Shown in pieces: positions 9,820 to 62,799 of a stretch of 64,000 nucleotides of DNA. The stretch's first letter is position 1. Every line of letters starts with the position of its first letter. The stretch spans positions 37,401,558 through 37,465,557 of the forward strand of contig CM049310.1 of the NCBI GenBank assembly GCA_026874595.1. Direction: 5' to 3'. The stretch is from Sipunculus nudus. Taxonomy: Eukaryota; Annelida; Sipuncula; Golfingiida; Sipunculidae. A program made the position numbers and the translations under genes. The notes under the pieces were generated by a model, which did no database searches, was not told the DNA's origin, and was given only the letters and a program-made list of their open reading frames with translations.

Positions 9820-10049
9820 GAGGCCCAATAGAAGTGGTTGAGCAGGATTTCAATCTGAAAAACCTACAAGACCAGTTTTCTGACATAAATGGTGGGCGAT
9901 GGCGACCGTCTTACTGTAGGGCGCGCCAACGTGTGGCAATTTTGGTAACTTACCGCGATAGGGAACATAACCTCGGGATCTTCCTAAACCACATGCATCC
10001 CTTTCTACAGCGACAGAAGCTTGACTACACAATATTTCTTATAGAACAG
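9820..10049 (+). CDS. B4GALT copy 1 exon E2 (230 bp)
   Basis: Acceptor TCTTTTCAG at 9811-9819; donor GTTGGT from 10050. Two bases complete a codon begun in the missing exon, then [37 protein letters not shown], and [18 protein letters not shown]. The Cys in SYCRAR corresponds to Cys176 of bovine B4GALT1. The exon ends in phase 0. Confidence 0.9.
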
Positions 10050-13000: not shown

Positions 13001-13730
13001 GCGTCCTCCGGTATCCGTCACAGATCGCTCGGTATAAATCTATTAACCACACGCAAGCTGAGAAAGGGCAACGAAGGTGACACTTCAGCTTATTTGAAAA
13101 GATGAAATACTTTAATGTTGAAGTACCCCATAATGCTGATGCTTTGTGCTGATTCCCTGCACATTCTATACATGGCTGTAAATGCATGGGTTATGTGCTA
13201 CGTTTATGCTGCATGATCATTAAGTCAAAACCTTCAAAGAAAAACAGTAGAAACGTAAGAGGCTTATCATTTACACCAACACCTGCGTGTTAAAGAAGTT
13301 CAGGCAGAAATAATGCTACAGAGGTTATATTTTAAATACAAAAAAATCATCGATTTCATCAGTGTTTATCCGTTATAACCTAACAATTTACTTATATTTG
13401 CGTTTGTGTAAAGGAAAAGCAGGAAATCATAATTTAATTATAATTTAATCAAAGGATTTTTTTTTAAAAGTGTGCACATGAAAAAAGAATAGATACTCTT
13501 TTGCATGGCATTTAATCACGCACTATACGGCTTATAAATATAATGTAATGTACAATTTCTTTGACAGACATTATTATCTGTATGGCAACAAACCAAGGCT
13601 CCTGAAAGACGGGATCAACAGTGCACAGTATGAGCTTAAGGCATTCCGCCCTGAGAAGCTGTACACGCATATATTAGTGGAGGTCAATAGGTCACTGATC
13701 ATGCGTCATGTGGACTCTCTGATGAACTGA
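9820..13730 (+). CDS. B4GALT-family glycosyltransferase, copy 1 (five C-terminal exons)
   Basis: Beta-1,4-galactosyltransferase family (GT7), a Golgi type II enzyme that transfers Gal or GalNAc from a UDP-sugar to GlcNAc-type acceptors. Joining 9820-10049, 10314-10501, 11864-11986, 12981-13076 and 13568-13730 gives one open frame of 265 residues ending in TGA. It contains GGRWRP, a YRDRE donor-site box, [11 protein letters not shown] (DxD metal site), [14 protein letters not shown] and DGINS. All junctions are GT-AG. Odd points: the usual Pro before the donor box is Thr (ILVTYRDRE), and the C-terminus stops 20 residues earlier than in copy 2. No anchor exon is visible upstream, so the gene probably starts left of the window, or this copy lacks a first exon. 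Specificity cannot be settled from sequence alone. Confidence 0.9.
10314..10501 (+). CDS. B4GALT copy 1 exon E3 (188 bp)
   Basis: Acceptor TGTTTAAG at 10306-10313; donor GTATGT at 10502. Encodes [19 protein letters not shown], then [38 protein letters not shown]. It holds the DxD metal-binding site (DID) and the two Cys equivalent to Cys247 and Cys266 of the bovine enzyme. Starts in phase 0 and ends in phase 2. Confidence 0.92.
11864..11986 (+). CDS. B4GALT copy 1 exon E4 (123 bp)
   Basis: Acceptor TATCTCAG at 11856-11863; donor GTGAGA at 11987. Encodes [39 protein letters not shown]. Contains the Trp314 and Glu317-Asp318 equivalents (bovine B4GALT1 numbering). The residue at the Tyr289 position is Leu. 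Phase 2 at both ends. Confidence 0.92.
12981..13076 (+). CDS. B4GALT copy 1 exon E5 (96 bp)
   Basis: Acceptor TTTTTAG ending at 12980; donor GTGACA at 13077. Encodes [31 protein letters not shown]. The His in INH aligns to metal ligand His347; Ser occupies the Met344 position. Phase 2 at both ends. Confidence 0.88.
13568..13730 (+). CDS. B4GALT copy 1 terminal exon E6
   Basis: Acceptor TTTGACAG at 13560-13567. Encodes [39 protein letters not shown] and ends [14 protein letters not shown] with TGA at 13728-13730. DGINS and LYTHILVEV match the family's C-terminal DGLNS and LYTxITVDI blocks. Confidence 0.9.
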
Positions 13731-14325
13731 TCTACCACAGTAAAAATGTTTGTGAACGTCACTGCCAACGTTCGAACATGCAGCACGCAGTGATACATTC
13801 CCCAATAAAAGAAAACATATGGAAAAAGTGAAGAATAAAATATAATATTAACCATGGAAAGGGATTTTTTGGTCATTTGCTTAAATTATAATTAAAAATC
13901 CTATTTTACTTGGCAAAGATATCAGTAAATGTACATTTTATTTGGTATTAATTTTAGCGTAGGTATAGACTGTCTCAAGTATTCCTAGTACTCCTAAGGG
14001 TAGATAACAGTATCTTACCGACTGAATGAAAAATAAAATTGTGGATATATCGCTGTAGTTGAATTTTAGTCACCTGATGAGGCGATCCGGCGGTACGTGT
14101 GTGTGTGTAGATAAACCGGTCTGTTGGTGCAAAGTTATATGAAGTATTAAGCTTTCGACAATTCATTGCCTTCGGCTACCAATCCCTGATATTTTGAATG
14201 TACAGCTGGCCATTTAAAGTTTGTTTCTTAAAAAAAAATCTATCACATAATCTTGTTGATTTTATTGTTGTTTCCCACTCGCATTCTTCAGAACACTCAG
14301 TACATTGCTGTCTGGGATGAAGTTC

Positions 14326-23719: not shown

Positions 23720-26410
23720 TAAAAGTCAAACCTTGCATGTAGTTTGCTCGAACAAAACTATTTTGACACCCCCCCTTTCTTGGATTTTTCCATTTAGAAT
23801 TTCTAAAACAAAATGAAACTGGTGTCAAAAATGTATTAATGTTCATCATATATTTGGAAGTGCTACCTTATGTAAATAAAAATTTAAGTCACCTTTTGTT
23901 CTGTTTTTTTTTATAAATGACGTTGCCATTTAAGTCTGGGATACTGCAATATAATTTAATGTCATGATTAAAATCTTAATATCGTTCAATCAGGATGGTC
24001 AAATATTTCCGATATATATATCTTCGGACGTGCACATGACATTTTATACTACATGGTGCAAAAACTCAAAGTCAACAAAAATCTAATTTCACCAAACCTG
24101 CTGTTTATTTTTTAATTGCCAAAAGTAGTTTTGAACATTTGATTGGCAAAACAAAACAATGAGCCCCCCCCCAAATATGAAAGAAACGTGGAATGAAACT
24201 CCTGTAAGCCGAACACTCAAGGGACTGAAGGATTTTGTCCGTATTAGTGAGTTTCCTGTTTGGAGTTTGGCATATAGCGTCAATTGGTCATTGAATTTTT
24301 TTACATCCTAGGTTTTCTTATTCTTGGGGTTCTGTGGCTAAAAATTATGGGATATTATTTTTTCGGTCATCTATCACAAGCTCCTGTGCTTCTGGGTAAC
24401 CTTATTAGTTATGAAACACAGGTTGAGCACCCCTGCTGTCACTTGTACAGAGTAATTTTCACAACACAACCCCCAACCCCCCTTTACCCCCCCCCCCCCC
24501 ACCCGAACAGCATTATTCACCAAGTGTTATGCAATAATTGTCATTGTTTGAACTGTATTTTCTTAACTGTTATGCTGATTCCATTCCAGTGTACAAAAAT
24601 TACTTAAGATAGTTGTTCAAGGAGTGATTCAGACGAAATATAGCATGTTTAAAGAAAATAAATTTCCTTTTAAGTAATTTTAACAAATTAAAGAGATGTT
24701 GACTACGACCATTGCATCATTAAATGGTTACAGGCGACAGGTTTCATATATTACACAGTGCATAATGCGTATTATTATGCGTCAGCTCATGTCCATTATT
24801 CTATGATTTACAAGGGTTTGAAGGTTCCCAGTTGATATATTTACATGCATATATCAGTCACTCAGTTGAATTACTTGACACATTTATTTTGATTCTTAAA
24901 GAGATGGGTATACACGTCATTTATTTATCAGCAATTTTCAGTGAGAATCTCTGAAATTTTCAATGAACTCTCCGCAGATGAGTAGTAGTTCATTTACCAA
25001 TTGGTCTCGTGGCATTAAATTGAATAATGTATAATTAGTCACGGCGCTGGATTATTCCAAAGCAGGAAAGATGTGTAGAGGGTGACAAAATCCACGGCTT
25101 CCGGTCTTGCCGTGAAGTGAGTTCGAGATCCGCTTTTAAAAATTTGGTATGTGATCGTGAGAGGCATCTGCATCTTTTATGTAATCAAGTGCACAGTCAT
25201 CCTAACCACTAGGATTTTATACAGATATTTTCATAATCAATTTCAGCTGTGCGCTGTGACCCACAGGGTCTATAGATAAAATCAAAGTGACATATATCAG
25301 TTTGTTCATGTATAAGGGTAGACGAAATGTCAAGTTATATTTGTTTGACTGTATCGAAAGTGGATGAATACTTTTGTTACATGTAGTGTACAAGTTGCAT
25401 TTCGAGTGATATGTATGCTTCTATCTGTAGTTGGGATGTTTTACGTTACATTATGTGGATATAGGAGGGATGACTATACAGAGTATTAGTGCGTATGTAC
25501 TATAAATGTTTCGAGTGTTTCCATCTCGATTACCCGTTAACATATATTCTAGGATATTCTTATTAAAATGGATATGTCTCTGATTATAAAAGAGTTTGGG
25601 TCACAGACCGTCTCTGTTTTTAACTTTTTGTTAAATGTGCACACAGTTGTCCTTCATGTGGCAGTGTTTACTACAAAACTTTATTAAATGTATAACAGCT
25701 TTGAAAAAAAAATCTAAAATGATTGAAATTGACGAGTACCTATTTGCCATATATCAATACGCTTGTAAAAACCCAGCAGCTGCGATCCAGAATGATAATG
25801 TCTATGAACCGCATAGAAATCACTCAAACTGACATCATCACATCTGACCTCAGTTAATTGCTTTTCTTGAAGAAGCATTGCCTCATCTTACTGACTCCAT
25901 AGTAATTTTCTTTGATAAACTGGCTCGTACAAAATATGCATGGCATACTCTAGTTAGTTTAATTTGCGATATCTGATTTAAACACTATAAATTATGCGAG
26001 TTGTGTAATTTGCCTGCCGACAACTCGGGGCTATACTCAGAAATCTCATAGTAAGTAATTCTGCAAACATTAGCATGAAGCATAGAATTCGATTCCCCAT
26101 TCTACCAACCAATGCGATTATCGACGTCTAGTTTACATTATAGTTGACATATAGACATGTATATCTATGTGTATATATATTTTATATTTATATTTATTTA
26201 CAGACCTATAATATAAGATTATTTTGTCAGAGGTAAATAACGTTGGGCCGACCATGGATGCCCATGTCGATGACACACAATTCCAGCAATCCCAACACTT
26301 CGCCAATACACTTTATCAACTCGCTTTGCTTATGCAGACATTGTAAATATGTAATCACTGTAGAAAAGAACCATAGTGCTACTCAGTAGCAAAACATATC
26401 AAAACAATAC
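23720..26410. other. Intergenic spacer, non-coding
   Basis: No gene recognised. A C14 run at 24487-24500 and AT-rich low-complexity sequence are the only structures seen. The 107-codon frame at 24284-24607 is hydrophobic then Pro-rich because it crosses the C run, and has no family features. Confidence 0.5.
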
Positions 26411-28812: not shown

Positions 28813-29035
28813 TTATTGAATTGTTTTATTAGAAGATTTTTCACTCTGTGCTGCAAGTTTAACTGTTGTTCTTGCAGTCATCAGAGAGTCCACATGGCGC
28901 ATTATCAGTGACCTATTGACCTCCACTAATATATGCGTATACAGCTTTTCAGGGAGGAAAGCCTTAAGTTCGTACTGTGCACTGTTGATTCCGTCTTTCA
29001 GCAGCCGTGGTTTGTTTCCATACAGATAATGATAT
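28813..29035 (-). CDS. B4GALT copy 2 terminal exon E6
   Basis: Acceptor TTTTTTACAG before 29035. Encodes [39 protein letters not shown], then MRHVDSLMT and a further 20 residues, Lys/Ser/Thr-rich, to a TAA. Copy 1 stops 20 residues earlier. AATAAA-like sequence occurs at the stop itself. Confidence 0.9.
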
Positions 29036-32000
29036 CTGTAAAAAATATACAATATCCTATATACATAAGCCATTAGGATTTTCTATTTTAAATATAACAT
29101 CTTCAAGGAAAAAAGTGTCATTCTTTGCTGAAATTATTCAACACGCATATATGTTGGTGTAAATGATAAGCCTATTATGGTTCTACTGTTTTCTTCGAAG
29201 ATTTGACTAAATAATGATGCGGCATAACAATAACGCTAAAACAATGCATGCACAGCCATGTATAGGATGGTAAGGGAATCAACACAAAACATTAGCATAA
29301 AGGTGTTCTTCAACATCAAAGTATTTATATATTTTCTAATAAGCTGCAGCCCCACCTTTGTCGACCTTTCTCAGCTTGCTGGTGGTTTATAGATTTATAC
29401 CGAGAGATCTCTGAAGGATACCGGAGGACGCGGTACTTCTGGTTCCTTACCCTTAAAAATATCGACAAAAAAATCAACTGCAGAGAGCTTACAGAGAATC
29501 AAGGTCTCGAACAGAGAAAACCTATATCAATTAAGAAATTTCGTTTAAAAACGGAGAATAACATTTTAATATGTCAGCAGAGCAAAAAGTAACATGGGAA
29601 TAACAGCTGCAGGAAATAAAGAAAATGAGCATTACACCAACAAAGAAGATAAACCTTGCGTAAAACAAGGAGATTAAAACACCAACAAAGTGTACTCTCT
29701 TTATGACACATAAAATAAATTCCAAGACCGCTAGGACCCCTGACAAAGAACGGAGACATTTGGAGAACCAGCAACCGACATCAGTTAAATATATTACTGG
29801 CCTCTTGGTCAGTATACATAATTTTCATGAGAATTCACATGGAACACGTCTTTCCAATATAATTTGATTGAACTAAACCATTTTGCTTATTGACTGAAAT
29901 CAAAATACATTTGAATCTTATGCCAGACCACGCAAAAATACAGTCATTGTCTATATGCTACTCCTAAAGTTCTACTTTTTTTTCAAGGCAAACATGCAAG
30001 GTTGTATATAAGAAGTGGACTAATACTTCTCTTTACCGTTTTGTTAGCTTATACAGCTTTAATGAATTGTATAGTTTTGTTTGACTTACCTGCTAAAGAG
30101 ATCATCGTCTTCTCCGCCCCATCCAAAATAGGCGTTAGAGAAACCGTTGATTCTGTAAAACTGTTCTTCGGTGAAGGTACAAACACCTCCCATCAACTTT
30201 TCATAAAGAAGTCTGAGATATAAAAGAGATTATCAGACTAATATTACAATCTCATTTTTACGTCATATTTTGTCAGCAATTGTATACAACATTGTCAAAT
30301 AATCTCAGTGTGTTTTCTATAAATACGTTCCATCCTCATAGTAGTTCCTAACTTTGAAATCTGCTTTTTTATTTCGACATGGATACCTCTACACTGTCAG
30401 TCTCAAATAACATGAGCAACCACTACATAATACCAGCAAAGAACACAAATTCCTACACAGCATTTATTCTGTATGAATCTCAGAGGCGTAGGATCCATTA
30501 AGGCTTCATTATGGCCAGGGGCGCCCTGTATTACATTTCTTAATATACAAGAAAACTCGACATATGATGCCATTGTCCGCTAAGTGCAATGTTTTTAGTT
30601 GGCCTCAACAAACCTAACATAATTAAAAAGCAATAATACACCAATGCAGGACGGCTTTATGTTATCAGGTTTCAAATTTCACATCAGATTAAATACAAGT
30701 GAGTGACAACAACGACAACCGGCCAGTTACCCAACAGTTTATCAGAGCCGGAACCCCTTTTCTACTGGTGATAAATGGTGATGGTCACAAAATTCTCACA
30801 ATGACATTTTTCTGGGTTCTTTTAGCTCCATTCAAAAAAAGTGTGATGTCCATGAGTAATGTAACAAAGTTGTATTCGTTGAGAAGGCCTCCCACAAATC
30901 TGGTACAATATATAAACATCAACCGCTGTTAAAACTGCTGCAATACGTCTCAGTCCTATATATCTCAGATGAACATGGCTCGAGCGTAAACAATATTTTT
31001 CTGTGCCCTGTCTGGCCTGATAACAGTATATTTATATGTTCAGGTCTACCCTCAAAGATTCAGCTTGGACCCTAACAGGATGACTCACTAGCCAAGCTTA
31101 CATAGTGCTTACACTTGCAGAAGGTGCGAACGGTTCTAATCTATGATTATTCAGCACCATGATGCTTAAATATGCCATCAACTTAAGAGACCTTTCCAAA
31201 GACATTCTAATAGCTGACAGGTTTGCGCGGTATTCCAGATCCTGTGTCTCACATTATGAAAACAAGCCTATCGAAAGCTTCTAGGCGAGACAAATTAAAT
31301 GGCCATATGCTTAGTTAATAAAGAGGCATCCTTCAAAATGATCAACACATGCAAATGAACTCTGACTTACTCTGAGTTACTCATGATAAAAATGACATTC
31401 TCTGAAGTGATTTATTAAGTAAACTTCGAGCATTGAATGTGACACTGGAACAATATATTACAACACTCACGTGAAGAATATATAAAATGATAAGCCAAAT
31501 AATCTTTCCGAAACAAACAAGATATACCCTGCTTATAGAGTATATGGAATACCTGAACAGGTGGCTGCACTGTCCTTTCATTTATAACCGCCTACAAACA
31601 ATACCACATACGTGTAATTCCATCTGCTGCAGGCTACTGTTAGATGGCGAGGATGATCGGAGCACGTGTAGTTGATTCTATCATCCTCTGGCAGCTCATC
31701 AATGTCATGTAAAATAAAGCAGTCGTAGCGTCCCCTAGCGGTGATCTCTAGAAACCCGGCATTATAAAGCAGGCCTCTGTTGAACATTTCCCTCTTCGTC
31801 TGCAACATTTCGGTTACGAAATACTGAATTCGTGTTCGTTGTCGGGGGATCACATTCATGTCCACACGTTTAATTTTAACATTGATTTCCAAACATTCTC
31901 AATTAAAAAAAATATAGAAATATAGAATTAAAGATATTTGACTCATTTTTCAATAAGGATATAGCTTGTAAAAGACAGGAATAGTGTATAACATAACGTT

Positions 32001-35000
32001 GTGTTGTCACTCATCACACGTATAACTATATGAGAACCAACCTGTTCTATAAGAAATATTGTGTAGTCAAGCTTCTGTCGCTTTAGAAAAGGATGCATGT
32101 GGTTTAGGAATATCCCGAGGTTTCGTTCCCTATCGCGGTAAGGTACCAAAATGGCCACACTGTGGCGTGCCCTGCAGTTGGGCGGTCGCCATCGCCCACC
32201 ATTAATGTCAGGAAACTGGTTTTGTAGGTTTTTCAGATTAAAATCTTGCTGAATCACTTCTATCGGCCCTCCTAAAAAGATTCAAAGTCATATGTAATTT
32301 AAAATATCGTTAATTTACTGTGCATGTTTCTAACCTGTCCTAAGAAAAATAGTGTATGTTTATTTGTTTGTTTCTACAAAGAGGATGTATATTATAACTC
32401 TGTTTATTATTTGCAGTTTAATTTTAAATTTTAGTGTGTATTAGGTTCATTTACTGTTTTCGAATATCTTACCAATAATTTGGTTTATTTGTATGTTACG
32501 ATTTTTGTTATAAAGAAAAGTGTGTATTCTTGGTCTCTTATGATAATATAAAAATATTTATCTCAACAGGATAACAAAGTAATCGTGAAGACTATTACAA
32601 ATGCTTTCCAGGTTAAAAAAGTGGAAAAGTAACGTATATATACATTTAAATATACATAAAAAGATAAATATAGTTTTATATATACGTTATACAGGTAAAC
32701 ACAGATTGACATTCCTCATACCAAAATAAAAATGGAGTTAATACTATGTTAAAAGTCATTTATTTAACGTGATTGTCGAGCTTTGCGATTAAAACATTGT
32801 TCAGAATATCATAGTTTTCTTAGTTTAACATTACTGTGTATACGACAGACTACAGAAACGTAGAAACACGTGCCACAGCTGGTAATATAACGCCGTGTAC
32901 CGATAATGTAATTAATTACATGTTTGAATAAGAGATGCTTTATTGAGCTACATGCATATAAAAACATTTTATTGAGATTTTATTGTTTTTTCTTTGGATA
33001 TTATGTGCTGGCTGGGTGAAGAGTACAATAGCATTAAGCTTGAATTCGTCAAATCAATAATTAAATTGCTGAAAAGAGTTCACCTGTGTGCAATATATTT
33101 TTGACAATATAGATAAAATTGCTGGTAGTTTTTCTCTTCCTTTTTACATTGACAACTTTCAATAGGTATAGGTTTAAGCTTATCTTTTGAAAAAAGAATT
33201 TATGCAATTTCTGCCTTCCTCTGTGTATATATTTATGATATCAGGATAATTCTGGACATGAAAAGTTATAATAATGTCTCCGAAAAGGATGTATGAACTT
33301 GTTTATGAAAAAGGTGTTTGTTGACAAACCAGAAAAAATAAGTACCCTAAGGTGGTAGGTTGGGCTAGAAAGGTCACTATCTGAAATCCGATATTTGCAA
33401 AGCCCTGGCTTATCTGACTTTCTGCAAGATGCGCTTGTTGAATTTACTTTATTTTGCCGGGCCCCACATATTATAAACACGTTGATATAAACCAAAAAAG
33501 CAGCCTGTGTATGGTGATATCCACTTTTACTGGTCTATTTTTTTTTATAAAAGCCGAAAGGGATTATCTTTAGTTTATAAAGGTAAGATGGATGGTTATG
33601 TCCATTTAAAAAAGTCGATTGACGAAAACTTTAAATTCATTTGATAGATATAGTTTTATTTTGTATTCTATTTTAAAAAGGGTACTTGAAGAAACTCATA
33701 ATTGAATCACCCTTTGGTAATTCGGTTGAAAACATGTTTTGTCCTTCCACACATTTATGCAATACTGCATTGGTCATGTTTAAATCTATACTGATTATTA
33801 GGGTTGGTATTCGCCTACAAATTTTGTATTGTAATATATTACGATATGTTGTAGCGTATAGCGATACGTTTTGCGATATTATCACTCTACTAAATTAAAA
33901 GAAATGTATGTGTTTTCTATATCTATATATAAATAGTATTATTATTTTTATTTTTATTATTATTATTATTAACCATTCTCCATCTTGTAACATAAAATGA
34001 GAGAAAAAGTTTATCCAGATCAATTTATTTTAAACATGAAACATGAAAATATTACTGACTAATGTACCCTTCGAAGTACTTACATATTGAAAGAACTCAT
34101 AGTAACCTTTCAAATCAGAGTTAGTTTTCTTTAAGCCTTACATGTGCAAATCATTTATTATTAGAGAATGCTGTACTATAGTTTAGCATAAAGAAGTAAA
34201 TGGTTGGTGTGTACAATCACTGCCGTTTGACACATCTGTCGATTTTAAACAAAAGTACTGTTGACTTGACACTTGATCTTATTGCAGTTAACATAAGATC
34301 TGAGGACAGAATATTACTGATTGATTCATCATTATGACTATGTTATGACTACTTCTCAATACTTATACTAAATAGTATACTTATAAGTCATCGAGCAGAC
34401 ATACAAATGTCATTGGTCGGACCTCAGATCTAGGGTTCATCTGGCCTACTTGGACATATCTAACTAAAGGAGAGCGTTAAGCCTTTCATTAATAGTCGTG
34501 TGGCTTAGCGTCAAATTTGGGCCATATCGTTACAGATCGAATGAAAACACCAAGCTTTGTCGGTGGATAGAGTACATACAGGCGGTTGATTTTAGCGCCC
34601 AAAAAGTATTTAGCCCTTGCTCACCAACGTAACAAAATTTAGCATAACAATATGATAATTCATATATTTAGATTTTTTTTAAATATGTGTATTGTTTAAA
34701 TGAAAATGGATTAATATAGATTCAACCGACTTGACCGCAATCCCTTCACTGTCGTATGAGGTGTTTTTTTTTTGCCGAATATCAGGCTATTTTGAACTCA
34801 TTTGTGCTTAAAGAACCAGAAAATGAGTTCGAATTTGCACCCTGGGGTTTGACCTGAAGACACTTCGTATAATATTTTGTTGTTTTTTTCCGATATGTAA
34901 CGATAATTCCGTTAAGCCAACTGACTATTGGAAAAATTAAAAACATTAGGTTTTGCCTACACTTAAGACACACAAATATAATGGTCTTATCATCACAGTA

Positions 35001-38700: not shown

Positions 38701-41700
38701 AAACTAATAATATAATCTTTCCTCATGAAACTGCATTTGCCACTTTAAAACGGATCTGGTCCGACTAAACATGTCGCATTCATGACGTAGCATCCTGTGG
38801 TAATGTAAGGATACCCCTTATGTCACTCTCCTCTATTTCGACCCGGATAGCTTACTCACGAGGGCACTATGAGTATGAGTTGAGCTCCAGAACAGCCTGA
38901 AGGTCGCGATGCCTACCTGTGCTATTACAGGGTGGATTGACGTACCGAACGACAACAAACATTCGGTCTACATAAAGTCACAAACCCACTTAGGAACGGC
39001 TGTTGAGGCTGAAGGGTTTCTGGGCAGTGTAATTATACCACCCAACTCTACAGCTGACTCTTCGGAATAAAAGGGTCCGAACTTCAGAGTCAACGATCCG
39101 GGAGGTTTACACCATCACGAATCCAAAAGAAAACCAGCCATCAAATAAAAATGATATGCATGTGTCCTGTAGTCAGATTGATGGCATGTTACCCAGTCAC
39201 TTGGCTCCAGTGTTTCGCGATTGTAAAAGCATATTCAAACATTGATGAGTGTAGGCAGGGTAGGTTATACTATTATCAGATTCGGAGATTATGGCTCAGC
39301 CGGGATCACTGGAGGGCTAGTGTGTATCCATTGGTGCTGGCAGGCGTATGCAGAACAGCCAACACTCATTGTCAGACCCAGTATTCACGTTTGTTTTTAT
39401 TTAAACTTATCTATTTAACATGGATTGTACAAATAGTTATCATAACTAATCAAGGCACTCTCCTTAGCTCCGATGATGGCGTTCGGTAGTCTGTAGAGGT
39501 GCAGGAAACCGGAGAATCCGGAGAAAACCACCGGCCTTGGACGCGCAACTACTACCCACTCTCATAGCCACACCGGGGATCGAACCCGGGTCGCCAGCGA
39601 TGAGAGCCAAGCGTTTTACCTCTCGACTGTCCAGCCCCACTAGATAACTAATACTCTGATTCCAAAAGAGAGGCACGAGATCAGTGTTATGGTCCCGGGG
39701 GGGGGGGGGGGGGGGGCGCAAGAGATGTGCACAACAATACATCGGACAAGCAACCAGATCAATACCGTTTCCTTAAGCGCTTGCTCGGTAGAGCCGACTT
39801 CAGCAACCAAGTCCTTATCCTACTATGCCATGACCACGGTGACAGAGAAGCCGCGAAACAGGTTCTTAGGTTGCTACGGACCTCCAGGAACAAAAAGGCA
39901 CCGACACTGCTTTGTGGAAGATATTGCCGAAGCAACAACAGGGATGGAGGCGCTGCTCAATTGTTTCTTAGGGGTCCCCAAGCTGTTCCTGACGACCGGT
40001 GTCAAACGGGCATTAGAAGCCATACCAACAGAAAGGCTCCTCCTTGATTCCGATTGTCCCTATCTGTCAAAAAATCCGTGGGACCTAATGTCTATAGCTT
40101 ATTGATCAAGCAAACTAAAGCAGCTCCCCATTCTGACGCTTCTTCATAAGCTCAACCATAATATTGTGAAATGGGAAAGATATAACAAATCAGCGAAAAA
40201 TGATGATAGGACTGAAAATATTTTTTTGAAGAAAGGTACACTTGTACATGTACCTTTTCAAAACAAGAGTATACACAAATTCTGTCAGAGTATGATACTC
40301 CAGTATTATCAGATGTGCAAGCAGCTAGTTGTGATGGACTGATTTCAGAAAAAAAAGAAGTCTTGTCAACGTTGAAACAAATGGAAAATAATAAACTCCC
40401 GGGAATGATTGATTGCCAAAAGAATTCTATATACAGTCAAACCTCTATAATGTTGGCACCCATGGGACTGGACCAACGTGCCCAATTTATAGAGGTGCCA
40501 ACTTTATGGAGGTAATGGCCAGCACAGGATGCTGCCCCTAGTATGATATATTGCTATAATTACTCATGTTTTGAGATAACTAAATTAGCTAATTGCATGT
40601 ATCATCTTTCTTTATTTAATGACAGTTTTTCTTGGTACCAATTTATTTTTAATTATCAAGAAATTTGTAAGAAGATATGTATTTTATTACAAAAAAACTA
40701 TGGACAAAAAAAATGAGAGCAATAAAAGGAAGCTGTGTGCAGATACTCAATATATATATATATATGTCTTAATTCAAAATTTTTATATTTATAAGCGCAA
40801 AATGGCAAAACATTAACATTGGTAGTAATAATTCTTAATAATATATTCAAAGATGACAAAGTCCATGATTAAAGATTGTGTGTAGCAAAGTGCACATAGA
40901 GCAAAGTGCACGTTGCAGCTTTGCATTTGCTATTGAGAGTCCAGGTTGAACAACATTTCAACAATATGATTCTTTATGTAACAACTGTTCAATAAACACT
41001 GCCCTGGTCTAGTAGGTAAGTACCTGACTACCTGTGATGGGCCAAAGGGCCACCTAATCACAGAATATTAATTGGGAGAATGTACAGGGCTTCCTTCCGC
41101 TCTTGGTAACCAAACAAACAAATATTAATTAATTATCACAGGGGCATCTAGTCTGTGGTGATCTCTAACTTGTGCCGACTTATAAATATTATTATTAAAT
41201 AGTTAAGAATTAATATTATCTTAATAACTTGAAAAGTGTTGTAAAGAAAGCTTTCAAAGTTATAATGAGGAGGTAGTCCAACCTTCATATCTGTGAAGTG
41301 CCCATATTAGCTTTGGAAAACTGCCCATTTTACATAATATAGAGGTGCCCACATAAGCTAAACATAATAAAGAGAAGAAAAAATGGGACTGCCAAAAAGT
41401 GCCCACTTTATAGAGGTGCCCACTTTATAGAGGTGCCCACTAAGAAAGGTTCCACTTTAAATATTTTTGTTTTCGTCAGGAAGGATCTCGTTAATTGTTT
41501 AAACATATGTTTTGAAGAGGGTAACTACTAGTCAAAGGCAAGCAGTGGTTAATTTGATTAAAAAAAAAAACAGGTAAAGCTAACCGTTTAATCTCATCAT
41601 TGCTACCAATTATTTTGTTAAATGTCGATTATAAGATATTTAGTAAACTTTTAGCAGGGCGATTAAAAGTTGTCCTTCCTTATCTTATTAATGGGGACCA

Positions 41701-47800: not shown

Positions 47801-50800
47801 ACTTTTACACCTATTCACCTTACAAACTATATATGTTACAGTCAATGTTTAAAATCAGTCAATTTGTAAATTGCCTGAAGTTGACAGTCAATTTTCAAAG
47901 TTCCTGACTCACTCAGGCAATTTATAACAGGACTGAAATGTTCAAGCATCTTACAGTTAGTGAAAAATCAATCAGTTAATTTAACACATTGACTGAATCG
48001 ATATGAAATATTCTTTTGAGTCACATATCTCATTATTGTAAAACAGACAATGTCCAATAGTATAACCAGTTACTTTCGAGTAAATTTTATGCCTTATTTC
48101 TAGGCTCTTTTTAAAGAATGCTGATCTAATAATAGAATACAAAGTTTCATGAGGTGTAACAAGAATCATATGGTTGAAATACGTATCCTATTATCACATA
48201 ATGAAATATGCATATTACTTTATATGCATACTACTGCATATCTCTGCTTATTTCAGGACCAGAAACTAGTCAAATGGAGGCCTTGATTAAATGAAACATT
48301 AAAATTTGTTATAATATGTGAAATTTAAGATGAAGAACGGTAAAGGATAACCACTTATACATAGATGTTAACATCAAATACATTAATCATTAAGATACGC
48401 TAAGTGTGTTGCAACGGCTTTGCTTAATTAAAATTACTTACTCTACTCTGTTTGTTTTCCTTTAATCAGTTTGCCGTCTAAATTTTTTTGAGAGGAGGAT
48501 TTGCCATTCATAATGAACATACCATATTACCTCCACTCACCCCTGTTTTGTCAAACAAAAGAGTGTCATTTTGCCAAAAAAAAATAGACTCTGATTTATA
48601 AAAAGAGATGTTTTCTAAAACATGGGTGAGCTTCCTCAGATAAATGTGATCTTTGAGAAGTAAATAAACCTAAAACGGTGACTTGTGACCTTGCACGATT
48701 TTTTCGTTTCCATGATTTTCTGAAAGCAAGGTATGAAGCACAAATTTAAAAAATCAGATTTAGATAATTCAAAATAACCAGCAGCGGGGTTGAGGGATTT
48801 CTCAGGGGGAATTCGCTAAGTATTTTTAAATACCGCTTAGTATTTTTCAATAAAAACTTATTATATGTTTGTTTCTGAAAGTTCCCTGTTATTTTATGGC
48901 AAAATTGCTGAAATCATGAAAGATATTGTAACAATTTTCCTACTTAGAAAAAGGGGGACACCCTGCCCACTTCCACTCCTAAACTTTCAAAGCAAATTGC
49001 AGCCCTGACCCTGTACAAAATTAACTTCTTATGTATTTATTTCTGCAAAAACCACAATCAAACCAAATTTTTTGAAACATTTAATTATGCAATAATATGA
49101 TGTAAGATATATAAACATTTTGTAAGACTAAGGTGTTTGAAATAAATAAAAATGTTCTTTAAATTTTTGTTTCTGTATAACAATAGTATGTCATATTTTA
49201 AACATAACAGTTTATATGACAAATTTACTGATATTAGTAAATTACAAATTAACTGATTTTACACATTGACTGTAACACATATACAGTATATCCATCCACC
49301 CATTGCACTAGATTTTTTGTATGACGCATTCATACTTTGCATCTGTATACGGCATAATCTATAATGATTAAGACAAGGTCTTTCCTGTTGAACGTCCGAA
49401 AGCCATAGAGTAAAAAAATTCACCAGATGTTTCTAGGCCCAATGATTAAGGTACATGCCCTGTCAAATTACCGGGCTCCCCGTTTCTAGGTGGAATGTTT
49501 TAGATTTATGCCCTGTTAACGGATGGCTGCTTTATCGGGCGAACGACGGACATAGGGTGTTCGCTAGATCTTAAAGTCAGCTGCACTGAAGAGTGAATTC
49601 GCTAAATTCTTCTTTCCATTGCAAATATATGTTTTCTAATGTATGTATATATTTGTGTATTTAAGCAGAGGAGAGCAAAGCAATGAAACTGTTAAAAATG
49701 GTCAATTTAATATGCGATTTAACTGTGCTAAATTGTACGAGTACTAATAATGCAAACACTTCCCATGATCTGGGCAGATATATTCCTTTTTCTATTACTA
49801 ACATAAATAAACACTTTCTTCCATGGTGTGACTGTCCATGTGTTATGTTTTCTTTATATTTTAAGTTTACTGATCATATGCCAAATAAACAACACTTTAT
49901 GTTACCCTTTTTTAGATACAGCACACGGAATATGTAGTATTGAGGTAATATAGGTGAAGTTCCCAAATGCCTGCTTTCAACATGGCTATAAAAAGCTAGC
50001 ATGTATGTGTATATATTTTGGGTTTAGAAGTTTCACTTGGGTGCGTCTTACAGATTACGCTTTTTACTGGTCGAGGCATCAAGGATTTCGTCTGTATTTT
50101 CTAATAAAATTTGATCCATCAAAAATAGTGAAGCAGGTCTCTCGGACACTAACTGTATTTGTGTTGCCTAAACAGACATCAGACAATGGACAACATACGA
50201 CGGATGGATGACGCACCATGGCCTTTTAGGTTACAGGTAATCTAAATATCCTTCAATATAAATATGGTTCTCTTCTGTTTTTTTTTAATTAAATATTTTT
50301 ACTTTATCATTACTATATAGGGTAACCAGTTTAGCAATGTAAAATACTGAAGATGAAATTTCAGTTCACAATGCGTGTTAACATGGACTGAAACCTACAC
50401 GCCACCTACCTTTAGGAGAGTCGCATTGTGGGAGATATCTTGCCATATCACGCGTGCTGTGTAGTTTTTCTTTCGGCAACTCAGGACTATTTACTGATTG
50501 ACTTGTTCTCAATAATATTACAGAAAGTATCATCTCCTGTATTAAGGTGATTGCGAGCATGTTCCTTACAATTAGTTTACTCATCCTGCTTTTAAACAAT
50601 GCGAAAACGGACCACCCGAGTAGTTCCTGTTTGCGATTTACTCCTCTGCCCAAATGTCAGCATGAATCTAATCATTAGCATTGTTAGTAAGTAATCTCAA
50701 TGTAATTGATAAAATGGAGAATTGAACACCGGAAAATCTTCCTAGCCCCGCTGATCCGCCTCTGGTTTGCAGTAATATAGGCGACATATATGTTAATATG

Positions 50801-51503
50801 TAAATATTTAAACGTGGTCAAAACTGTTGACACTCACTTGATATCACCCTCGCTATGGTAACTGAAACCGCTGTATGAGTAACCTCTATATGTTTAACAG
50901 GCATCGCTCTACAATTTTTATAGTGTTGGCTCAAGGGCATACGGCACCTAACTCCCCAACATTTCACAGGGGGAGTGGGGTGGGGTTCCTTACAATTTAG
51001 GGTCTGTACTGGTCGAGGCATCAAGGATCTCGTTTGTATTTTTTAATAAAAATTTGATCCATCAAAAATAGTGAGGCAATTGTTTTTTCTATGGCCTTAA
51101 CATACATCAGACAATGGACAACACACGACGGATGGACGACGCCCCATGGCCAGGTAATCTGAAATATGCTTTAATATAAAATATGATTCTTTCCTGGGCT
51201 ATTTCCATCATATATTTTTACTTTATAATTACAATATAGGGTAACTAGTTTAGCAATGTAAAATACTGAAGATGAAAATCCAGTTGGCAATGCATGTTAA
51301 CATGGACTATAACCTACACGTCACCTACCTTTAGGAGAGTCACATTGTGTGAGATATCTTGCCATATCACGCGTGCTGTGTAGTTTTTCTTTCGGCAACT
51401 CAGGACTATTTACTGAGTCACTTGTTCTCAATAATATTACAGTAAGTATTATCCCCTGTATTATGGTGATTGCGAACATGAAGCTTAGAATGAGTTTCCT
51501 CAT
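28813..51503 (-). CDS. B4GALT-family glycosyltransferase, copy 2, complete gene model with alternative first exons
   Basis: Exons, 5' to 3' on the minus strand: E1b 51503-51329 or E1a 50584-50410, then 32271-32042, 31799-31612, 30212-30090, 29451-29356, 29035-28813. Coding length is 1035 nt, giving 344 residues with either first exon. E1 ends one base into a Gly codon (AAA G) and E2 starts with GA, giving CDSPKGGPIEV, like the family's CP...GP block. The product has a short cytosolic tail, one membrane anchor, a short stem, then the catalytic domain with four conserved Cys, [11 protein letters not shown] and INH. The donor box is intact (ILVPYRDRE). It is the best candidate for an active enzyme. 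The link across the 18-19 kb first intron is inferred from phase and motif fit, not from transcripts. Confidence 0.75.
29356..29451 (-). CDS. B4GALT copy 2 exon E5 (96 bp)
   Basis: Acceptor TTTTTAAG; donor GTGGGG. Encodes [31 protein letters not shown]. The metal-ligand His is present and Ser is at the Met344 position. Phase 2 at both ends, as in copy 1. Confidence 0.9.
30090..30212 (-). CDS. B4GALT copy 2 exon E4 (123 bp)
   Basis: Acceptor ATCTCAG; donor GTAAGT. Encodes [39 protein letters not shown]. Leu is at the Tyr289 position. The Cys in GGVC replaces the usual Ser. Confidence 0.92.
31612..31799 (-). CDS. B4GALT copy 2 exon E3 (188 bp)
   Basis: Acceptor TGTTGCAG; donor GTATGT. Encodes [57 protein letters not shown]. 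DxD site and Cys247/Cys266 equivalents are intact. Confidence 0.92.
32042..32271 (-). CDS. B4GALT copy 2 exon E2 (230 bp)
   Basis: Acceptor CTTTTTAG; donor GTTGGT. Encodes [62 protein letters not shown]. The donor-site Pro and the Cys176 equivalent are present, unlike copies 1 (Pro lost) and 3 (Cys lost). Confidence 0.92.
33240..34750. other. Presumed intron 1 of copy 2, block beta part
   Basis: Matches block alpha at intervals (33370-33480 to 6010-6090) but holds no exon. Short overlapping frames on both strands at 33673-33898 are not supported. Confidence 0.5.
35671..35711. repeat. (TA)n microsatellite
   Basis: About 20 TA units within block beta. Confidence 0.95.
36905..39260 (+). pseudogene. 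Ty3/gypsy-like gag and start of pol, degenerate
   Basis: In several frames, in order: a Ser/Pro-rich N-terminus (from 36912); [20 protein letters not shown] near 37540-37600, the gag entry block; then from 37715 [54 protein letters not shown] and DKNTHTVQK, the capsid C-terminal region. Around 38340 there is a degraded zinc knuckle ([12 protein letters not shown]). Around 38560-38650 a protease-like stretch is possible, and near 39180 [16 protein letters not shown] suggests the entry to RT. There is no complete RT, integrase or LTR. Many stops and shifts; inactive. It starts exactly where block beta homology ends. Confidence 0.75.
39385..39645. mobile_element. SINE family A copy
   Basis: Contains TTTAACATGGATTGTACAAA, TAACTAATCAAGGCAC, GATGATGGCGTTCGGTAGTC, GAAACCGGAGAATCCGGAGA, ACCACCGGCCTTGGACG and the tRNA-like end GGGGATCGAACCCGGGTCGC followed by AGCCAAGCGTTTTACC. 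It sits between the gag fragment and the TatD-like fragment. Confidence 0.85.
39697..39716. repeat. G20 homopolymer
   Basis: Uninterrupted run of about 20 G directly before the TatD-like fragment. Run length is a likely sequencing or assembly uncertainty. Confidence 0.9.
39727..40110 (+). pseudogene. TatD/TATDN2-like metal-dependent hydrolase fragment
   Basis: One frame reads [34 protein letters not shown]. After a shift near 39895 it continues [68 protein letters not shown]. The paired HRHCF and [12 protein letters not shown] motifs correspond to the metal-site His and Asp blocks of TatD-family nucleases; the HRHCF form is typical of TATDN2-like proteins. The N-terminal barrel half is missing and the frame is broken. 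It probably belongs to a repeated or element-borne gene. It continues to the LINE insertion point at 40147. Confidence 0.75.
40147..40166. repeat. Left copy of the LINE target-site duplication
   Basis: AAGCTCAACCATAATATTGT, repeated with one mismatch at 44264-44283. Confidence 0.75.
40180..42120 (+). pseudogene. LINE reverse transcriptase, split by a MITE, degenerate
   Basis: Left of the [35 protein letters not shown] and, after a shift, a GLPKEFY-type block. Right of it (from 41460): [62 protein letters not shown] in place of the motif A region, GFIKWVQLF, then the [20 protein letters not shown] block near 41970. These are RT blocks 0 to 4 of the L1/Tx1 type. The YADD-type motif region is lost. 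Multiple stops. Confidence 0.75.
40434..41457. mobile_element. 1024-bp MITE-like element inserted in the LINE, TA target
   Basis: Starts CAGTCAAACCTCTATAATGT and ends GAAAGGTTCCACTT, with TA on both outer sides (40432-40433 and 41458-41459). Joining the flanks rejoins the LINE frame (EFYKYF), which proves insertion. Near the right end a unit of the form GTGCCCACTTTATAGAG is repeated in tandem, and a variant occurs at the left end. No transposase is visible; the short frame at 40619-40816 is low-complexity. Confidence 0.82.
42133..43740 (+). pseudogene. LINE C-terminal region and tail, several frames
   Basis: Consecutive open stretches read [13 protein letters not shown]-like sequence near 42250, [20 protein letters not shown] and [12 protein letters not shown] near 42490-42590, [38 protein letters not shown], then [26 protein letters not shown], and [14 protein letters not shown]. 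This WHGK, NGGL, D, RLMWIK series is the conserved C-terminal region of Tx1/L1-type ORF2 proteins. Best-preserved part: 42478-43046. Confidence 0.78.
44264..44283. repeat. Right copy of the LINE target-site duplication
   Basis: AAGCTCAACCATAATGTTGT, one mismatch from 40147-40166. Confidence 0.75.
44284..45100. other. Pre-insertion flank, (TA)n array and a LINE-like 3' tail
   Basis: Two related segments occur in tandem at 44330-44460 (TTACTAATCTCGATTC and TTACTCATTCTCCGATTC, each followed by AGCTGGAGAAT). A TA array lies at 44821-44874. At 45028-45093 the sequence ends GAAATTTTGAATAAATAAAT, the style of a CR1-like 3' tail, but no coding trace is attached. No gene. Confidence 0.5.
45100..47240. 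other. Non-coding, nothing recognised
   Basis: No coding similarity, repeat boundary or RNA is seen. Overlapping minus-strand frames at 46480-46809 carry no family features. Confidence 0.45.
47250..47507. mobile_element. Right part of a second MITE of the 40434 family
   Basis: Ends in three tandem variants of GAGGTGCCCACTTTATA and then AGAGGTTCGACTG, followed by TA (47508-47509). It is the same right end as the element at 40434-41457, in a less mutated form. The matching left end was not found, so the element may be truncated. Confidence 0.7.
47834..49277. mobile_element. 1444-bp DNA element with about 38-bp terminal inverted repeats
   Basis: The left end TGTTACAGTCAATGTTTAAA plus about 18 further bases (to 47871) pairs with the right end (49240-49277) with about two mismatches. 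A third related piece, CAGTTAATTTAACACATTGA, lies inside at 47973. No transposase or other coding sequence is recognised, so it looks non-autonomous. A target duplication could not be fixed because TATA-rich sequence flanks both sides. Confidence 0.75.
49278..50050. other. Non-coding, nothing recognised
   Basis: Between the inverted-repeat element and the duplicated first-exon units. The short frame at 49683-49937 has no family features. Confidence 0.45.
50410..50584 (-). CDS. B4GALT copy 2 alternative first exon E1a (175 bp)
   Basis: Starts at ATG of [16 protein letters not shown]; membrane anchor about residues 3-25, then stem [27 protein letters not shown], then donor GTAGGT. The frame stays open for 23 codons upstream of this ATG, but the ATG is chosen because it aligns with the E1b start. 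The Cys near the end corresponds to bovine Cys134, the disulfide partner of the Cys in E2. Arg7, Asn8 and Glu17 make the anchor less hydrophobic than that of E1b. Confidence 0.78.
51329..51503 (-). CDS. B4GALT copy 2 alternative first exon E1b (175 bp)
   Basis: Starts at ATG of [20 protein letters not shown]. An in-frame TAG lies three codons upstream, which supports this start. The anchor (about residues 4-25) is uninterrupted and hydrophobic, and the short basic tail gives type II topology. The stem [27 protein letters not shown] is almost identical to that of E1a. Donor GTAGGT, phase 1, fits E2. The family usually has a longer stem before its catalytic domain. Confidence 0.8.
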
Positions 51504-51809
51504 CCTGCTCTAATCAATGCGAAAACGGACCACGCGAGCAGTTCCTGTCTGCGCCTAACTCCTCAGTCACAAATGTCAGCATGAATCTAATCGCCCTCAA
51601 TACGAATAGTTAATAAGTAATCTTTATGCAATTAATCAAATGGAGAATTGAACACCGGAAAATCTTCCTGGCCCCGCTGATCCGCCTCTACTTTGCAATA
51701 ATATAGGCGACATATATGTAATTATATAAATATTTAAATGTGGTCAAAACTGTAGGCACGAACTTGTTACGGCACCTAACTCCCTATAATTTCACAGGGG
51801 CTTTGGTGC

Positions 51810-52750
51810 TTGAGTATTATCCATCTGGATGGTGTGTCAGAATGTCTCAGGGTTTTCCATCAATGCCGGATAGAGCTGTTTGTACTTGCAGTGAGGTCTT
51901 ATGTGCCCGGATCTGCTCGGTCTACTCGGAATAATATTTTTTTAGCTCTGCTTTTTAGGTTCGGTAGAAAAACGGGTCATAGAGTCAGAACCTGCTGTGC
52001 AGTAACATTTTAATATCAAATCAGAAGGTTCTGTTTTTTTTAAACTCCCTGGTCCCTTTTCTCTAGGGTTAGACAAGTCAGGAATTTTACATAGTATGTT
52101 TAAATGTCAGCCTGCATGAGTGACCATCCATAATTTTATCAGCTGGAGTCTTTTATTTGCACATGGGCATCTTATTTACATGACATCACCCAGTAAGCAG
52201 TCACTAATATGAAATGTATTTGAATGTGGTTTTAATGCCCATAACTGCTAACTGTATAATTGCAATTTTTCCCCCTCCGCCCAGAAGGTATGCTCTCTCC
52301 CCGTCCGTGTGTTCGTGTGTTTAAGTGTGTGTTTACATCAAACTCATCTAATCCTGAATGGATCTTGTGATATTGTCAAAGCATTTCGGGAATGGGAAAG
52401 AAGAAAAACGATTAGATTTTGGTGTAGATCCGACACATTATCTTGATTAAGAAACGTCTTTTCACAAATTTATAGTCATTTATGCACGAATATGAGCCAA
52501 ATAGGTAAATTCGAACTTCGTTAAGGCTTGCATTCCATAAATTACATATTTCTATTTACATTGTAGACTGAGATTTCATAAAGTTGCTTTGAATTGTTTG
52601 ATATTCTGGAAGATATCTATTCCATATCCTTGATCAGAATCAGGTTAATCTGCAATCCCTTAGTACACCTACCATGACCACGGGGAATAGTGAAACGGGA
52701 TACAATTCAAACCCCAATATCAGTTTTGTCCTGATTCAGGCACCTGAAGG
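51810..52750. other. Upstream of the B4GALT copy 2 first exons, non-coding
   Basis: A promoter for the minus-strand gene would be expected near or right of 51600, but no TATA box or other element can be assigned with confidence. Overlapping frames at 51740-52013 are not supported. Confidence 0.4.
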
Positions 52751-59149: not shown

Positions 59150-59304
59150 AGCACATGACCGAAAACCCCCTTTCCATGGCACGTACGATATTTTGTTATA
59201 CATTTTTTTCAATGTTTCATTTTATGAAAAGATGTATCACTGTACTCTGCAAGTTTAATTGTCGTTCGACAGTGACGTTTACTCCAATATTTTTGTTGGT
59301 AGAT

Positions 59305-59463
59305 CTAGTCATCAGAGTCCACATGGCGCATGATCAGTGACATATTGACCTCCACTAATATATGCGTGTACAGCATCTCAGGGTGGAACGCCTTAAGTTC
59401 GTACTGTGCACTGTTGATCCCGTCTTTCTGGGAGGTGGTTCCTTTCCATACAGATAGAGAAAT
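59305..59463 (-). pseudogene. B4GALT copy 3 exon E6 remnant
   Basis: Acceptor ATCTATAG style is kept. [40 protein letters not shown], then a 2-bp deletion changes the end to DSDD and stop. Confidence 0.85.
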
Positions 59464-59839
59464 CTATAAAAAAAATGCAATTTAGTTTATGCATAAGCCA
59501 TACAATGCATGGTAAAACTTTCTATTCTTATGTCTTTATGTTTTTCTATTTTAAATATAACCTCTGTATGGAAGAAACAGAAGGATTCCTGGCTGAATTT
59601 ATTTAACAGAAAAAGAATATTGTGTAAATGTTAAGCCTATTATGGTTTTACAATTTTTTTATCGAAAGTTTTGACTTATCAATTATCCGGCATAACTAAA
59701 ACTCCAAAAAAAGCATACACAGCCAAATATACAATTTATAGTTATATAAAGATATAATGCGAATCAGCATTTAGCAATAGAATTACAGTTTAGATTAACA
59801 TTAAAGTAATTTTGGCTTTGCAATAAGCTGCGGTCTCAC

Positions 59840-59935
59840 CTGCGTTGCCCTCTCTCCGTATGCGGTTGGTTTACAGATTTATACCGAGCGATCTCTGACG
59901 GATACCGGAGGACTTGGTACTTCTGGTTCATCAGC
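59840..59935 (-). pseudogene. B4GALT copy 3 exon E5 remnant (96 bp)
   Basis: Length and splice sites are intact: [31 protein letters not shown]. The His of the INH motif is Gln. Confidence 0.85.
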
Positions 59936-60860
59936 CTCAAACATATTAACATTAACATATAATGATTCAATTGCTCCATATAAGGGTAAATTGCAAGTTT
60001 GTAGTTTTTAAGATGAAATTAGAATATTACCATATATCAATATATCTTTTTAATTATAAGGCTACGATATTTTTAGTTTCTATTTTTATAATTCCTGGTC
60101 TTCTGTAAATTAGCTATTGATATCTGATAAGCGCTGCCCGTGTTATGTGAGGCATTCAAGGAGAATTTCTCTCTCTCCCCCCCCCCCTCCTCACCGAATA
60201 AGCATCAATGCATCCGCCAGGAGGAAATGCCTTTATCCCCGTTCGTTTGCTTGCTCACATAACTCAAGGAATAATAAATTTATGCTCATAACATTTTCAG
60301 AGCATTTCCAAAGATTTTGGCGTGGATAAGGCCCATGATCCGGATTCAACATTGCCGTCAAGCAATATTTGCCTAATAACAGTGACTCATGCACGACTTG
60401 GCCTGGTATATTTACCAGCGCCCTGAATATAGGCATTCCTTCGATAGGCATTCCTTAGAATGCACATTTCTTAACTTTTTGATATGTTTTTATATTCCCG
60501 TTACCCTCACACATGATCATTTCTTTATTATAAAAAAAGTTTCGGGTTAATGCGTGGCACATGGGTCCCAATAAAATATGGCAATTGTCAGTCTGCATCA
60601 GCATATAATTGTTGAGTCAAAGTACATGTGAGGGGCGAGACGATTTTCTCTCTAAGGCTAAAACGCCTGGAAATTTTATGTGTGGTCAAATAAGAAAACT
60701 AGCTGTATCACATAATTATATCTTGGGAACCAAGTGCCTTTTCTGAATGGATGCAAAGTGCCACCAATTAAAATACACGAAGCTGGCACGCCGTTCGTTG
60801 AAAATTAAATTAAGCATGTTTTCATAGTTCTTATGGTTTGTATAATTTTGTCAGTGTCAC

Positions 60861-60963
60861 CTGCTAAAGAGATTATCGTCTTCCCCACCCCATCCACAGT
60901 AAGCATTAGTGAAACCATTGATTCTGTGAAACTGCCCCTCCAATCAAATTGTCGTACAGACGC
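60861..60963 (-). pseudogene. B4GALT copy 3 exon E4 remnant
   Basis: Splice sites intact (TTTCAG, GTGACA) but 20 bp are missing after the IGG codons. The remaining block gives RINGFTNAYCGWGGEDDNLF once the frame is shifted. Confidence 0.88.
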
Positions 60964-62128
60964 CTGAAATACATAACGGATTATCAGGCAGAGTGTATAA
61001 TGTTACTTTTATGTCTTATTTTGTCAACGATTTTATACATTACGCCTGATATTCCCAGTGTGTTTCTCATTTAGAGAGCGTCTCACTCTCATAGCTGGTC
61101 CTTACTTTGTCAATTTAACCCGCTGTTTTAAATCTGCCTGTATACCTGTAGTCTGCAAGTCACAAGAACAGCAGCTATATTTAACAGCGAAGAATAAATA
61201 TTTTAACGAGGCACTTAGTCTGTATGTATCTCACAGACGTAGGATAAAAAAAGCTTTATTATGGTTCGGAGCGCCCTGTATTGCAGTTCTCTATATACAA
61301 GAAAAACACGATATATTCATCCATTGCCCTAACAAACATAACATAATTAAAAAGCAATGATACACTAGAGCAGAACGGCTTATGTAATGTAGCATCAAAT
61401 TCCACATCAAATTCCACATCAAATGCAATAAAACTGAGTGATAACCACGACGAACGGTTTTATCAGAGCCTGCATGAAACCCTTTCTATTGGTTTTGGAT
61501 CCACGTTTTTTTTTAATTCATACAATGAGACTTTTTTTTCCGGTTCTTTCCACACCATCTAAACCACATAAGAAATACAGGGGTAAGGTTTTAACTTTAT
61601 ATTCCTCGAGAAAGCCTCTCATTCATCTGGTATAACCTAAACTCTAACGACAAAGCCGCATCTGCGGGGCGTTATACCTTTTTTTTGAATATATAAACCG
61701 GTGTCAAAACCACTGCACAGCATTTCAATCCTCGATGGACATGACAAAAAATATTTTATTGTGCCCTGTCTGGCCTCACAACATTATTCATTATATTCAC
61801 ATTCTGGCCCGCCAACGGTATTTATATGTGCCCTTGCTATTTATCGGTCTTGGTGTACGGTATCAGCACTTTAATGATAAAATATGCCTTTCCAACAGTG
61901 TTCTATTGGCTGACACGTTTGTATGACACTCTAGGTGCATACAATGCATGTAAACAAGCCTAGCGAAGCTTTGAGGAAAGATAAATTAAATGGCCATATG
62001 TTTGTACAGCATTAAATGAGACATCGAGTACAGCCCTCCTTTCCTTACACGAAATGCTTGTAGAGTATATGGAATACCTGGACATGTGGCTACACTGTCC
62101 TTTCATTTGGACAAACAATAAGACATAC

Positions 62129-62298
62129 GTGTAATTTTATCAGCTGCTCGCTGCTGATAGAACACGTGTAGTTGATTCTATTATCCTCCGGCAGCTCATC
62201 AATAGCGTGTAAAATAAAGCAGTCGTAGCGGCCCCTGGCGGTAATCTCTATAACCCGGCATTGTAAAGCAGGCCTTTGTTGAACATTTCCCTCTTCAT
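62129..62298 (-). pseudogene. B4GALT copy 3 exon E3 remnant
   Basis: Acceptor mutated (TTTACG where copy 1 has TTTAAG). A 1-bp and a 17-bp deletion. The DxD block reads HAIDELPEDN instead of [10 protein letters not shown]. Confidence 0.88.
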
Positions 62299-62538
62299 CG
62301 TAAACACAGAAAGTTACGACAAATACTTTTATTATGATCGTTATCGGGTAATCACTTTTCTCCTAAAAGTTTCAATTCATTGTTTATTTAAAATACAAGT
62401 ATATTTGGAGATATAAAATGAAAGATAATTAACTCAGTTTGTCGTACAGCTTGTTTATAGCTTGTTAAGAGTGTACGTATAACATACTGTTGTACCGTCG
62501 TTCTCTACGAGTAAAACTATTTATGAGCCACAACCAAC

Positions 62539-62768
62539 CTGTTCTATAAGAAATATTGTGTAGTCAAACTTCCGTCGCTGTAGAAAAGGATGCATATGGT
62601 TTAAGAAGATCCCGAGGTTTCGTTCCCGATCGCGGTCAGTTACCAAAATAACCACACGTTGGTGGGCCTTGAAGTTAGGCGATCGCCATCGCCCACCATT
62701 AATGTCAGGCAACTTGTCCTGTAGGTTTTTCAGGTTAAAATCCTGCTCAATCACTTTTATCAAACCAC
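62539..62768 (-). pseudogene. B4GALT copy 3 exon E2 remnant (230 bp)
   Basis: Open throughout and of normal length: [60 protein letters not shown]. Acceptor TTTCCAG and donor GTTGGT are intact. The conserved Cys is Phe, and the donor-site Pro-Tyr is Thr-Asp. Confidence 0.88.
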
Positions 62769-62799
62769 CTGGAAAGAGTCAACATAATATGTATTTAAA

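Follow-up and report, generated by a model that had tools for sequence, protein, structure and literature searches.

Gene structure

The window analysed here is a 64,000-nt stretch of the Sipunculus nudus genome (C5:37401558-37465557), and positions refer to it unless given as contig coordinates; searches covered 1.43 Gb of genome sequence. On the minus strand lies a gene of six exons, a first exon plus E2-E6, whose first exon is present in two copies. E1a (51329..51503) and E1b (50410..50584) each encode a short tail, a signal anchor and a stem, and lie 18-19 kb upstream of E2 (32042..32271). The coding part of each comprises 58 codons and one base (51503-51329 for E1a; 50584-50410 for E1b), and both end in the same phase-1 donor (AAAG/GTAGGT). 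The start of E2 at 32271, proposed in a preliminary description of this DNA, is borne out by the acceptor TTTTTAG/GAGGGCCG in phase 1, as the E1a and E1b donors require, and either exon joined to E2 reads ...CDSPKG GPIEV... in frame. The locus thus shows the layout of a gene with multiple variable first exons: two similar first exons, both compatible in phase, ahead of a single constant set. The N-terminus, a short tail and then one hydrophobic segment, is that of a predicted type II Golgi enzyme, with an anchor hydrophobicity (KD19) of 2.45 in E1a and 1.74 in E1b.

Searches with E2 and E3 gave no match between E1a/E1b and 32271, and we therefore rejected the assignment of E1a to another gene. 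Assignment to the neighbouring pseudogene was likewise rejected, because the exons of that pseudogene lie upstream of E1a.

The catalytic domain begins in E2 (Glyco_transf_7N) and continues through E3 (31612..31799), E4 (30090..30212), E5 (29356..29451) and E6 (28852..29035), all on the minus strand; E6 is the last coding exon found, and its stop codon is not delimited. DxD and WGGEDDD are motifs of the beta-1,4-galactosyltransferase family, and they occur here as DID in E3 and GWGGEDDD in E4. The E1a-E2-E6 model matches two Pfam domains, Glyco_transf_7N (152.6 bits; cut-off 27) and Glyco_transf_7C (93.5 bits; cut-off 23), and its residues 49 to 311, which span the E1/E2 junction, align with bovine B4GALT1 (E=3.7e-57); both comparisons were run on the E1a model, from which the E1b model differs only within exon 1. 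By these sequence matches, the gene is a member of the beta-1,4-galactosyltransferase family (GT7). In the bovine enzyme, Met344 is a metal ligand and Tyr289 selects the donor. Here Leu aligns to Tyr289 and Ser to Met344, which are not the residues of the galactose-specific, B4GALT1-like subtype; we therefore do not place the gene in that subtype, and the replacements suggest altered metal or donor use. By eye, the same Leu and Ser are seen in all five units compared (E4-E5, 30212-29356 in this gene, minus strand). Exons E2-E6 are open, and the catalytic unit is under purifying selection, with dN/dS values of 0.21, 0.19, 0.25 and 0.20 in comparisons with four other units nearby, two of which carry stops (37510059 in its E2 match and E6; the plus-strand unit near the end of E6).

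The surrounding array

The gene is one of a series at C5 37.39-38.11 Mb, which holds all 16 of the exon-1 protein matches (at least 16), 11 of at least 51 E2 matches genome-wide, and 11 of at least 54 E3 matches. B4GALT-like genes seemingly form a large family in this genome, judging from the E2 matches, and more clusters of B4GALT-like E2/E3 exons are seen at C13:29.8-30.8 Mb and C1:18.0-18.2 Mb. In-frame stops occur in 3 of the 16 exon-1 matches, and further broken or partial copies are found within the 252.7 kb that were read as sequence (37361301-37614000, to which several loci of 3-4 kb were added). Counting broken copies, a single exon 1 was found for six of the 11 units and more than one for the other five; outside the sequence read, this count comes from exons mapped by search, which could miss copies of the kind termed E1-III below. 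More than one open copy is present in only two of the 11: this gene, with two, and the unit at 38048881, with three (38065160, 38080164 and 38104992) and a broken fourth (38066639). Extra copies before a single unit recur at the plus-strand unit at 37411376, where one exon 1 is open and two are broken.

This plus-strand unit is a second B4GALT-like catalytic unit in the window (9819-13748), with its open exon 1 at window-relative -5850, a broken copy of exon 1 farther upstream of that and a broken E1-III closer to the unit; its E6 match has an in-frame stop near the end. Another kind of exon 1, E1-III, is placed 2-4 kb downstream of the E1-I kind at this unit and at units 37464096 and 37496208, and is again the closest to E2 at unit 38048881. 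It is open in two of these four cases (37497744 and 38065160). No E1-III was found in the intron of our gene by tblastn with four E1-III queries, and at the neighbour, where it holds a broken E1-III, the corresponding stretch of intron is ∼2.9 kb longer. A weak match at 41012-41050 (plus strand) was rejected, having no open exon or initiator in frame. Downstream of the gene, part of a first exon of the E1-II type, PELSAGKLHNSHNL, occupies 25988-26032 (minus strand), and no catalytic unit was found after it on that strand within the window. The long intron also contains a TatD DNase-like fragment (39644-40102, plus strand; Pfam E=2.5e-8), perhaps carried by a mobile element.

Upstream of E1a, the neighbouring pseudogene retains a catalytic unit (59248..62769, minus strand) in which E3 has a frameshift and has lost its end and E4 has a deletion. 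Its exon 1 (copy 37477106) falls beyond the edge of the window (window-relative 75549-75725) and has stayed open. The exon 1 at 38013019 is also open, and no E2 or E3 was found between it and the next gene's own exon 1. An open frame is thus weak evidence of use, because these two exons have kept theirs.

Origin of the two copies

The duplicated unit is ∼0.8 kb long, and the E1a unit (50989..51877, minus strand) and E1b unit (50047..50843, minus strand) are 83.7% identical over 808 columns. Between 38404 and 53136 this gene and the pseudogene align colinearly as a set of pieces, whose identity outside E1a is 74-84% (81-82% for the longest); the ∼6 kb of intron adjoining E2 gave no aligned piece at the cut-off used. 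Against the pseudogene's exon-1 unit (window-relative 75212-76098), the E1b unit is 82.3% identical (aligned from 49932) and so resembles its surroundings, whereas the E1a unit forms a 0.89-kb island of 93.5%. Within the island, divergence is 2.6% on the intron side, 9.1% on the 5' side, 11.5% in the anchor and 3.4% in the stem. The longest run of identity between E1a and copy 37477106 is 212 bp, a length reached in 0 of 20000 permutations, and a quick tree built from 12 exon-1 copies groups E1a with that copy rather than with E1b, at modest support (0.816). Because E1a lies in an island common to the pseudogene's exon 1, with flanks of only 74-84%, copying between the loci is likely; for the E1a unit and the neighbouring locus it is strongly indicated by the sequence comparison. 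E1a probably shares a recent history with the neighbouring exon 1, through gene conversion or other copying.

The proximal ∼260 bp are common to E1a and E1b, and the sequence beyond about -260 differs. The stretch upstream of E1b (50844..50988, minus strand) contains partial matches to sequence upstream of other exon-1 copies: 43-46 bp (81-83%) match upstream of copies 38013019 and 37564, and 32-33 bp (91%) match E1a and 37477106. The part resembling 37564 and 38013019 was not matched upstream of E1a, 37477106 or the other copies searched. On this comparison, the promoters of E1a and E1b may differ.

Divergence of anchor and stem

The preliminary description counted 10 differences in the first 29 residues (the anchor half) and one in the last 29 (the stem half), with anchor codon changes almost all non-synonymous and a stem nearly identical in DNA. 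Our counts agree: 10 of the 11 differing anchor codons are non-synonymous, and the stem has two differing codons, one of each kind. In nucleotides, the copies differ at 13/87 positions in the anchor, 2/87 in the stem and 79/596 in the flanks of the same units. The anchor half is no hot spot, because its difference from the flanks is not significant (p=0.62); since it differs as much as the flanks do, and the stem at only 2/87 positions, the stem is the odd half. For a region picked after being noticed, the stem deficit is improbable as a chance result (Fisher p=0.0012 against the flanks and p=0.005 against the anchor), and the longest identical run, 66 bp, has a permutation p=0.012.

The 12 non-synonymous changes to one synonymous change in the anchor do not depart significantly from the neutral expectation (p=0.20). 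Over the whole exon the ratio is 13:2, and with an exon-to-flank comparison of p=0.11 purifying selection has left no visible mark on the first-exon protein since E1a and E1b split. Nine open copies (eight E1-I and one E1-III) make 36 pairs, in which pN averages 0.209 for the anchor against 0.217 for the stem, and pS 0.359 against 0.305. Column conservation in eight copies is similarly even (0.881 in the stem; 0.865-0.880 in the anchor); ten flanking bins range over 0.55-0.83, and the ten bases at the donor reach 0.975. The functional meaning that the preliminary description implied for the uneven divergence is thus not supported by these comparisons: its anchor excess is within neutral expectation, the two halves evolve at equal rates across the nine copies with conservation in the stem no higher than in the anchor, and there are indications nearby of copying between exon-1 units. 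The substitution counts, the flank yardstick and the family comparison lend no support to diversifying selection on the anchor, and the last of these also speaks against constraint as the cause of the stem's identity.

On sequence grounds, the near-identical stem is most simply accounted for if the 3' part of the exon has been homogenised. An almost identical stem (3/87 differences) is also seen in exon 1 of the dead neighbour; between E1a and E1b themselves only the 66-bp run (p=0.012) points to homogenisation, which does not extend into their adjacent intron (46/338 differences). It is conceivable that the stem is under a constraint specific to E1a, E1b and the dead neighbour's exon 1.

Use of the two first exons

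We give about even chances to the reading that E1a and E1b are two first-exon cassettes with their own promoters, each spliced to E2 to yield two enzymes with a shared catalytic domain. A cassette would consist of a proximal upstream region, ATG, signal anchor, stem and donor, with two in tandem before E2-E6, and would arise by local duplication, by copying between loci, or by both, in a birth-and-death array. Most likely, each would have its own promoter and be spliced to E2 separately, and the products would be two enzymes with an identical catalytic domain and slightly different anchors. The stem would reflect homogenisation and the anchor near-neutral drift under a loose constraint on hydrophobicity, adaptive divergence being unproven. 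We infer the separate promoters, the use of both exons and any difference in localisation from this arrangement. What stands of the duplicated alternative anchor exons first described is thus the pair of open, phase-compatible first exons before one intact catalytic unit; the duplication is real and its mechanism ordinary, and the functional reading is plausible but unproven from the sequence.

It is possible, if somewhat doubtful, that only one copy is used and the other is a still-open relic of first-exon birth and death. The array contains at least 16 exon-1 matches to 11 E2s, with stops in three of the 16 and broken or partial copies besides; open copies adjoin dead or missing catalytic units; and purifying selection on the exon-1 protein is not apparent since the split. 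Moreover, the E1b anchor is the least hydrophobic of the ten copies compared (KD19 1.74, against 1.85-2.71), and has Glu17 in place of the Gly found in E1a and in most of the other E1-I copies; among the copies read, Glu occurs there only in the broken 38066639. Nonetheless, both copies have kept their ATG, frame and donor, and both anchors exceed the usual Kyte-Doolittle level of 1.6. In a neutral simulation, both copies stay open and spliceable in only 1.8% of cases with indels at the counted flank rate (5.3% with a lower indel rate and 25% ignoring indels), figures that are biased because the pair was found by being open. The two copies might instead be mutually exclusive coding exons, spliced from a common upstream non-coding exon and without promoters of their own. 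We consider this quite unlikely: AGCAG, a possible acceptor, immediately precedes the ATG in eight of eight aligned copies, but inspection by eye shows no clear pyrimidine tract before it, and in E1a a second AG lies immediately upstream.

A different kind of alternative holds that purifying selection maintains the stem while diversifying selection has split the anchors between two Golgi positions. The 12:1 ratio in the anchor and the 2/87 differences in the stem fit such a history, which is compatible with two cassettes in use; however, the anchor's match to the flanks, its neutral ratio, the equal mean rates in the 36 pairs and the near-identical stem of a dead neighbour make it very unlikely. 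The likelihoods given here are not mutually exclusive, as this last one concerns divergence and the others exon use. Heterozygous genomes can yield tandem near-repeats from unmerged haplotypes, but an assembly artefact of this sort is extremely improbable for units with 16% divergence and distinct indels, each continuous with its own colinear flank. We also regard as unlikely, on present evidence, a broader scheme in which the whole array works as a B4GALT variable-first-exon system: anchor cassettes would multiply, move and homogenise semi-independently of the catalytic units, some of the open first exons of dead units would be used by the next live unit, and anchors and catalytic domains would be mixed combinatorially.

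Relation to known systems

In the same enzyme family, the long and short forms of B4GALT1 are also N-terminal variants, but they come from alternative starts inside one exon, not from duplicated exons. GCNT2 belongs to another enzyme family, and its variable exons also encode much of the luminal domain, whereas here the exon is anchor and stem only. The variable exon of UGT1 holds a signal peptide and acceptor-binding domain, and its membrane anchor is in the constant part. As the cited passages describe them, GCNT2 (IGnT) has tandem similar first coding exons spliced to common exons, with a separate promoter and an N-terminal membrane segment for each of the Gcnt2 variable exons (PMC1885805; PMC5147899). 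UGT1 likewise has tandem variable first exons before common constant exons (PMC1885805). Both organisations are there called vertebrate-specific and ascribed to birth-and-death evolution without prevalent gene conversion (PMC1885805); at our locus, in contrast, copying is indicated. B4GALNT2 has two alternative first exons, 1S and 1L, each with a start codon, and its isoforms differ in cytoplasmic tail and localisation (PMC8122605); there it is the tail length that varies and not the anchor sequence, and the cited passages describe no tandem duplicate. Our literature search for such an arrangement in B4GALT genes found no description in titles or abstract openings among the matches listed.

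By analogy, then, the arrangement has glycosyltransferase precedent in GCNT2, UGT1 and B4GALNT2, and alternative first exons of their kind are our best functional guess for E1a and E1b. If both are used, the locus would work as those do, in another family and with only anchor and stem varying. It would then present a natural swap confined to anchor and stem, in a Golgi-type enzyme that is otherwise unchanged, and the role of the anchor in positioning would become testable within one gene. Even without use of both, the first exons of this family turn over, and are apparently copied, separately from the catalytic exons.
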